Virus record (IMG/VR): IMGVR_UViG_3300008450_000215 | Span: 1 to 33,725 of that record | From: a virus | Strand: one strand, 5' to 3' | Length of the DNA stretch: 33,725 nucleotides | In this document: positions 7,935 to 9,291 of the stretch, piece by piece | How the letters are laid out: every line of letters starts with the position of its first letter | Position numbering within the stretch: position 1 is the stretch's first letter | Notes under the pieces: model-generated | Told to the model about the DNA's origin: nothing | Seen by the model: only the letters and a program-made list of their open reading frames with translations | Database searches by the model: none | Position numbers and translations under genes: made by a program

Positions 7935-8894
7935 ATGAGTAACGTAGCACTGTTCAACCCCTCAAGCATCCCGGCATTTGCACGGGCAGCAGGGCTCTCG
8001 GATGTCGCCAAGGCGCTGGCTGGTAACAGCGGCAGCGGCGGTAAGCGCATCTCCATCAAGGGCGGCGTGTTTCGCCTGATGGCTGACGGCAAGGAAATCG
8101 CCGCCATCGACGAGCGCTTTCTCGATGTGGTCATCGTCAAGGCAGCGGCCAAGGTCGCCCGGATCTTCTACATGAGCAAGTACGACCCAGAGGCCGCAGC
8201 CGCTGCGCCCAACTGCTGGAGCACGGACGGCGACAAGCCTGACGCAGGCGTCAAGGAGCCACAGTCGAAGACTTGCGCTTCCTGCCCACAGAACGTGGCG
8301 GGTTCCGGTAATGGTCAGAGCCGCGCTTGCCGCTACCAGCAGCGTCTGGCAGTGGTTTTGGAGAACAGCATCGAAGGGGATGTTATGCAGTTGGCGTTGC
8401 CCGCAACGTCGATCTTCGGGAAAAGCGAGAGTGACAATCACCCACTCCAAGCGTATGCTTCTTGGCTCCTCAATCAGAGTGTGGATCCTGCAATGGTTGT
8501 GACGCGGATGAAGTTCGACACGAAGGCAGAAGCGCCCAAGTTGTATTTCAAAGCCGTGCGCTGGCTGACCGATGACGAGTACGCCGTTGCTGCCGAGAAG
8601 GGCAAGTCGTCAGAAGCCATCAAAGCTGTCGCGCTGAACGTCTCGGCAGTAGACGGCGTGAAGCCTGCCCCACTCAATCTGGGTGGAACTAAACCCAAGG
8701 CTGCGCCAGTAGTCGAGGAAGAGGAGGAAGAGGCTCCAGCCCCTGCGCCCAAGAAGGCAGCGGCCAAGCCCAAGGCTGAAGAGCCTGCCGAGGAGCCAGC
8801 CGAGCCAGCGGTTCGCAAGGCAGAAGCCAAGCCATCCGCCGTCCCTCCCAAGAAGAGCTTGGCCGACGTAGTGTCCGACTGGGACGACGAGTAA
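7935..8894 (+). CDS. Putative ssDNA-binding-type protein with acidic tail
   Basis: This 319-aa protein has three parts. Residues 1-90 are a beta-rich N-terminus (RISIKGGVFRLMADGKEI). C94, C114, C117 and C132 form a probable zinc site. The third part is a long, disordered Ala/Pro/Lys/Glu tail (about 240-310) that ends S-D-W-D-D-E. An acidic C-terminal tip after a flexible linker is the hallmark of SSB and T7 gp2.5-type proteins, which recruit partners through it. The fold of the core is not one I can match, so the SSB role rests on architecture and on position between helicase and primase genes. AAGGA precedes the ATG at good spacing. Confidence 0.7.
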   Translation: MSNVALFNPSSIPAFARAAGLSDVAKALAGNSGSGGKRISIKGGVFRLMADGKEIAAIDERFLDVVIVKAAAKVARIFYMSKYDPEAAAAAPNCWSTDGDKPDAGVKEPQSKTCASCPQNVAGSGNGQSRACRYQQRLAVVLENSIEGDVMQLALPATSIFGKSESDNHPLQAYASWLLNQSVDPAMVVTRMKFDTKAEAPKLYFKAVRWLTDDEYAVAAEKGKSSEAIKAVALNVSAVDGVKPAPLNLGGTKPKAAPVVEEEEEEAPAPAPKKAAAKPKAEEPAEEPAEPAVRKAEAKPSAVPPKKSLADVVSDWDDE

Positions 8895-8906
8895 CTAGAA
8901 AGGTTT

Positions 8907-9002
8907 TGGGGAAGTAGTGGCGCGGCGGGTTAGCGCCGCCGCAGGAAGTTGGACTTCATTGGTTGCAATAAACACTGCTTCATGTGCTCCACTGCTTCCC
9001 CA
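8907..9002 (+). promoter_or_regulatory. Structured leader RNA with 14-bp closing helix (candidate)
   Basis: Between the stop at 8894 and the ATG at 9013, bases 8907-8920 pair with 8989-9002 over 14 bp with a single G-U. The helix encloses 68 bases. Inside are a 6-bp GC hairpin (8922-8927 with 8934-8939, loop GGTTAG) and a 5-bp hairpin (8945-8949 with 8953-8957, loop TGG). This gives a multibranch junction ending 10 bases before the ATG of the HTH gene, which itself lacks a ribosome-binding site. It is not a tRNA: there is no T-arm or acceptor arrangement. An in-frame GTG at 8917 lies inside the first strand. Pairing is seen directly; the role is inference. Confidence 0.5.
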
Positions 9003-9012
9003 TCCCACACAT

Positions 9013-9291
9013 ATGCCTTACTCACAAAAGACCATTAACGCGATAGCCAACTGCCCCAAGACGCTGGGTAACCAGCTAGGGCGGTGGGCCATCAATCGCG
9101 ACTTCTCCGTCGTTCGCATAGCCAAGGCGCTGGGGGTTACCCGCCAGACTGTTTACAACTGGTTCTTGGGCGGGGAGATTTTCCCTGCCTACACGCAACG
9201 CGCCGAGATGCTGCTGAACATCCTCAAGAACACACCGACTGCCGACGAGGCATGGAGACTGATATGCAAAGAGTACGATCTGAAGCCGTAA
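9013..9291 (+). CDS. Cro/C1-like helix-turn-helix protein
   Basis: This 92-aa product has a clear helix-turn-helix: FSVVRIAKALGVTRQTVYNW, with the recognition helix VTRQTVYNWF. Helices typical of small Cro/C1-type DNA-binding proteins flank it. The frame is open upstream to a GTG at 8917 preceded by GGGGA. The extra 32 residues from that start look non-native (A/S/P/C rich) and overlap a strongly structured leader, so I prefer ATG 9013 although it has no visible Shine-Dalgarno. The structured leader suggests controlled translation. It could regulate the early operon or act as a replication-origin binder. No divergent promoter or partner repressor typical of a lysogeny switch is visible. Confidence 0.75.
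   Translation: MPYSQKTINAIANCPKTLGNQLGRWAINRDFSVVRIAKALGVTRQTVYNWFLGGEIFPAYTQRAEMLLNILKNTPTADEAWRLICKEYDLKP

Follow-up and report, generated by a model that had tools for sequence, protein, structure and literature searches.

A folded 96-nt RNA module as the candidate insert of a split ribosome-binding site in an uncultivated phage

A folded element of 96 nt separates an ssb-like gene from a small HTH gene in the early region of phage record IMGVR_UViG_3300008450_000215 (IMG/VR). Judging from the sequence of this phage and its relatives, the element is best explained, with confidence a little above even, as an RNA module lodged in a split ribosome-binding site that serves the HTH gene. The whole record of 33,725 nt, from an uncultivated phage, is referred to here as the window. 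Its early region, on the + strand, encodes a DNA polymerase A, a PD-(D/E)XK nuclease, an SNF2-type helicase, a 319-aa protein with an acidic tail ending in DDWDDE (7935–8894, + strand, phrog_27714), the HTH protein of 92 aa (9013–9291, + strand, starting at ATG 9013; Cro/repressor-like fold, weak matches) and, after it, a DUF927-containing primase/helicase-like protein. Structural genes lie for the most part on the opposite strand. We infer that the 319-aa protein binds ssDNA, and call it ssb-like, from the company that related elements keep and from its acidic tail; the quality of its structure model was too poor to name a fold. The junction had been described as a boundary between transcription units, a description that found no support, as neither a promoter nor a terminator was found on the + strand between 8700 and 9300.

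The fold itself is exactly as an earlier note on this DNA had claimed. A closing helix of 14 bp including one G-U pair, formed by UGGGGAAGUAGUGG (8907–8920, + strand) and CCACUGCUUCCCCA (8989–9002, + strand), encloses two hairpins and leaves 10 nt between its end and ATG 9013. RNAfold assigns 8907–9002 an energy of −47.8 kcal/mol (z −4.67), with none of 200 dinucleotide shuffles as low, which upholds the view that complementarity over this range is unlikely to have arisen by chance; z falls to −3.38 when flanks are added. The interior holds two clear hairpins on the + strand, one with a GC-rich 7-bp stem that is the strongest of the inner stems (8922–8942) and one reading GAAGU UGG ACUUC (8945–8957), plus two weak ones. 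The 3′ arm occurs for the most part in two copies: CACTGCTTC is found at 8973–8981 and again at 8990–8998, and in the closing helix the second copy of CACUGCUUC is joined by CCC. When the transcript is ended at 8987 (fold of 8897–8987), the 5′ arm is predicted to pair with the first copy instead (8911–8919 with 8973–8981). The stem is followed by the spacer UCCCACACAU (9003–9012, + strand) and not by the U run that an intrinsic terminator would have after its GC stem. Rfam 15 gave no match at gathering score for the window element or 20 relatives, and no credible match for eight short element loci; hits to MIR408 and P26 (E 0.17–0.33) were below threshold and were taken as chance. No tRNA was found at the window element, and none of the known self-cleaving ribozyme cores compared with it by eye fits.

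Conservation of the HTH protein is strong from ATG 9013 onwards (MPYSQKT...), and viral contigs hold more than 500 relatives. A start at GTG 8917, raised by the earlier note as a reading that would do away with the element, is ruled out by the two nearest relatives (L001 and L002), whose HTH proteins are 97% identical to that of the window. At their junction an unrelated hairpin of 25 nt, where the window has 96 nt, replaces the whole element and the ATG is conserved; the order is AGAAAGGUUU, the hairpin GGGGCCAGCG.., then GCCCACAU-AUG, so that the same flanks are kept (ctagAAAGGttt-GGGGCCAGCG..GCTGGCCCC-gcccacatATG). This replacement suggests that what has to be preserved at the junction is a stem, rather than the particular arms of the window.

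The same note had described the ATG as lacking a ribosome-binding site. This holds for the 10-nt spacer, but an SD-like AGAAAGG on the + strand (8897–8903), 5′ of the helix, had been missed. Its first base lies 3 nt past the ssb-like gene's stop codon. The motif is conserved in L001–L005 and is a perfect 7-nt complement of the betaproteobacterial 16S tail CCUUUCU (duplex −8.0 kcal/mol), a tail that we confirmed in a plasmid-collection replicon of Cupriavidus CH34. The match is conditional on the host of the phage having this tail. Two G residues of AGAAAGG pair weakly with the spacer in the lowest-energy fold. Two marks of a split site are found here, namely an SD too distant in linear terms (109 nt from ATG 9013) with none at the normal place, and a stable structure between SD and AUG that brings the effective spacing back to about 11–13 nt when the helix is closed.

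Relatives carry very unlike elements at this junction: simple GC hairpins, or elements that we divide into class A, class B and class C, the last being the window type. Where the element is absent, the HTH ATG often lies a few nt from the stop codon of the preceding gene. Class C occurs in four other contigs only, with constant flanks and a variable middle; the second inner hairpin lies in the stretch that differs between L003 and L004/L005. The arms are nearly invariant in L003, L004 and L005, which retain the first 3′-arm copy and among which one G-C pair becomes G-U. The uncompensated drift of the arms that the earlier note had considered is therefore not seen, and neither is compensatory change; the window subclass shows no covariation because its sequences are too few and too similar.

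The two other classes are more informative about pairing. Class A has the scaffold TTC-GGGGGGAAAGCGGATGCT ... AGACGCAGCGAGTACCCCC-ACC around an insert of 22–92 nt. There are 91 different inserts in 135 copies, and the same insert reappears in different surroundings. The outer stem is altered with pairing kept in L042, L031 and GenBank MW202879 (the one clear relative from phage and plasmid records, unannotated at the element), whose E-loop-like GAA/AGUA and GGAUG/ACGCA internal loop belong to a class A scaffold in which both hardly vary. Class B is a second scaffold at the same junction whose outer stem also varies with pairing kept. Its inner helices covary, with 99.3% of cells paired (83.7% in shuffles) and 21 double changes (5.3 in shuffles), a signal that collapses when the alignment is slid. 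Class A inserts taken alone fold better on the sense strand (57 versus 34, p 0.002), which argues for RNA; the comparison is confined to inserts, whole elements being dominated by the constant scaffold. Counts of G-U against A-C on RNAalifold pairs were set aside as biased by folding rules. Since very different elements occupy the same site in relatives, we read the element as a modular insert around which the ribosome-binding site has been adapted.

Among 122 contexts, the gene upstream of class A is window-type ssb-like in 62, Enc34/Gp2.5-type ssDNA-binding in 9 and a PHROG-annotated ssb in 6; the others are Pam3 gp34-like (6), DDDLPF-type tail (3), DUF3310 (2) or unclassified (34). The stop codon lies a median of 5–7 nt before the element in every upstream-gene class. 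The elements thus belong to a modular, hypervariable group of intercistronic RNAs, absent from Rfam and anchored a few nt after stop codons. The group to which the window element belongs stands mostly behind ssb-type genes of several unrelated families.

The placement of SDs around class A carries the argument for a split site. With element borders set by class-specific patterns, an SD between element and ATG was found at none of 42 HTH junctions. An SD (GGAG/GAGG/AGGA) just 5′ of the element was present in 22 of these 42 and in 4 of 34 other cases, but in 0 of 42 when the following gene brings an SD of its own. The difference between HTH junctions and the rest (Fisher 7e-9; 2e-6 after collapsing by upstream sequence) is drawn from related phages, hence from non-independent samples. 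Duplex energies with the betaproteobacterial 16S tail followed the same trend (6.8e-7). With the element folded out, the effective spacing is 5–17 nt, as against 21–138 nt of raw distance, apart from two outliers at 27–28 nt in which the SD match falls within ssb codons; spacings of 13–17 nt, seen in many relatives, exceed the usual optimum. Roughly one in two HTH genes that follow an element has an SD on neither side, so the split site is not universal and reinitiation from the upstream gene likely contributes to HTH translation. The element type also precedes genes with a normal SD, from which it follows that its primary role is something other than the split site.

Of the three roles offered by the earlier note, translational control fits best, in the form of a split, or accommodated, site and not as occlusion of the start codon. 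The 30S subunit would dock on AGAAAGG, and the closed helix would take about 96 nt out of its path, placing ATG 9013 some 11–13 nt away instead of 109. HTH translation would then depend on the closed helix, and ribosomes arriving from the upstream stop codon would probably also be needed. In nascent RNA the 5′ arm is predicted to pair first with the near copy (8973–8981) and could then switch to the far copy (8990–8998) once GGGG/CCCC can form. Such a switch could delay or tune HTH synthesis.

The early region had been said to hold another such element, and it does, in the form of a covarying pseudoknot at 1199–1293 behind a DUF3310-like gene. It is of the H type, with GGGGCGGG (1199–1206)/CCCGCCCC (1267–1274) interleaved with GGCAGCAC (1258–1265)/GUGCUGCC (1286–1293), and its loop 1 holds a hairpin (1216–1222/1250–1256). 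After it, at 1309–1339, come a further hairpin (1309–1314/1331–1336) and ACC. All four helices at 1199–1339 have compensatory changes (six double changes, 98.9% paired), among three distinct sequences only.

Further observations concern the relatives. Many class A inserts (e.g. in L140, L152, L105 and L033) contain T-arm-like hairpins (GAGTTCGAATCTC, GTGGTTCGACTCCAC, GTGGTGCAACTCCAC), as if tRNA-like elbows had evolved there or been captured. L290 (G006) has two different elements 700 nt apart, one behind an ssb-like gene and one before an HTH gene. Promoter-like TTGACA with TACAGT or TATGAT is found just after the element in L095 and L193. A conserved block, CCCCACCGTACCCCCACC...AACACTGTTT, is shared by four phages (L289, L291, L294 and L299), away from ssb-linked elements. 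The cultivated Bordetella genomosp. 7 carries a class A element (L201:6480–6542), probably within a prophage, which could serve as an experimental system.

A broader but less probable reading takes the elements as a new class of phage RNA with a conserved scaffold and a hypervariable insert, acting in trans or in processing. The class A scaffold would then read GGGGG/GAAA-GC/GGAUG ... ACGCA/GC-GAGUA/CCCCC-RCC, with a sarcin-ricin-like GAA/AGUA, carried behind ssb-type genes in unrelated phages, and the window element would represent a divergent scaffold of this kind with a two-arm switch.

It is rather unlikely that the element serves RNA processing, its terminal stem resembling that of tRNA or 4.5S RNA and being cut behind the ssb-type gene by host RNase P or a different nuclease. 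The products would be individual messages or a stable small RNA, and HTH translation would be secondary. The ends of class A point this way. The stem is followed at once by R-C-C (R 117/121, C 117/121, C 119/121), and positions −1 and 73 hold bases that tend not to pair (C,A 99; A,G 6; C,G 0), in agreement with the site-selection rule of RNase P (PMC12710915). E. coli 4.5S RNA (ffs) has the same ends, GGGGG..CCCCCACC, and the distance from the stop codon is kept across unrelated upstream genes. In L168, where the class A element spans about 2412–2490, a perfect sigma-70 promoter (TTGACA-N16-TATAAT) stops 7 nt short of the first G; a transcript therefore probably starts with this element, and transcription would yield the same 5′ end as the cut. 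The window element, however, departs from the pattern of an RNase P substrate that class A relatives display, R-C-C 3′ of the stem with −1 and 73 unpaired: its subclass has A-U-C-C, and U8907 pairs with A9002. In most class B members C-1 and G73 could pair, the short hairpins that replace the element mostly lack RCC, and in the 22 split cases a cut at +1 would leave the HTH gene without its upstream SD. Nor was the earlier suggestion of an independent small RNA borne out for the window, although the L168 element does follow a promoter.

We consider it similarly doubtful that the element could be exchanged for any strong stem downstream of the stop codon, a hairpin that protects or insulates the mRNA, blocks 3′ exonucleases and sets relative expression, with the HTH protein made by termination-reinitiation and no split SD. 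The extreme freedom of sequence, the simple GC hairpins that act as replacements and the anchoring to the upstream stop would all be expected, as would the half of HTH genes without any SD and the HTH ATGs close to the upstream stop where the element is absent. Such a hairpin gives no reason, however, for upstream SDs to occur mainly where the next gene has none, for class A to conserve its internal loops or for the inner helices of class B to covary. A DNA-level role, as a single-strand initiation site or replication-origin hairpin, is very improbable: the element lies in a replication gene cluster, beside ssb-like and primase/helicase-like genes, and also folds as DNA (z −3.69), but there is no skew switch at 8.9 kb, close relatives have short hairpins instead, one genome can hold different elements (L290), the inserts fold preferentially on the sense strand and the variation of class B pairs passes through G-U on that strand.

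If the split-site reading is right, such sites would be a recurrent solution in environmental phages and no curiosity of T4, and large, fast-evolving RNA modules could lie within operons without the following gene being silenced. These modules, of which more than 100 copies were found, are absent from Rfam and tied to ssb-type genes of several unrelated families; as a group they are a ready target for asking what a phage RNA with a fixed frame and a hypervariable middle does.

Three known systems invite comparison. Like the STAXI motif, the elements are structured nucleic acids often near genes for single-strand DNA-binding proteins; STAXI consists of two or three tandem pseudoknots (PMC2864571), whereas the window element is a single, helix-closed multibranched domain with no Rfam match, and we do not assign it to that motif. 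Class A relatives have GGGGG...CCCCC-RCC ends and unpaired −1 and 73 positions in common with RNase P substrates such as the E. coli 4.5S RNA precursor, whereas the window element ends in AUCC and has no SRP domain. The arrangement proposed here is that of T4 genes 25 and 38, whose split initiation regions are shortened by structure from 27 to 11 and from 22 to 5 nt (PMC3014915). There, too, SD and AUG are parted by a structure whose folding brings them close again, and gene 25 is likewise intercistronic in a phage operon; on the window's side the likeness is read from sequence. The linear spacing is 22–27 nt in T4, against a multibranched insert of about 96 nt here, and the window-type insert is modular, hypervariable among relatives, placed behind ssb-like genes and duplicated in its 3′ arm. 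The proposed split site belongs to a known kind. Novel features are the size, modularity and hypervariability of its insert, the link to ssb-type genes and the duplicated arm.
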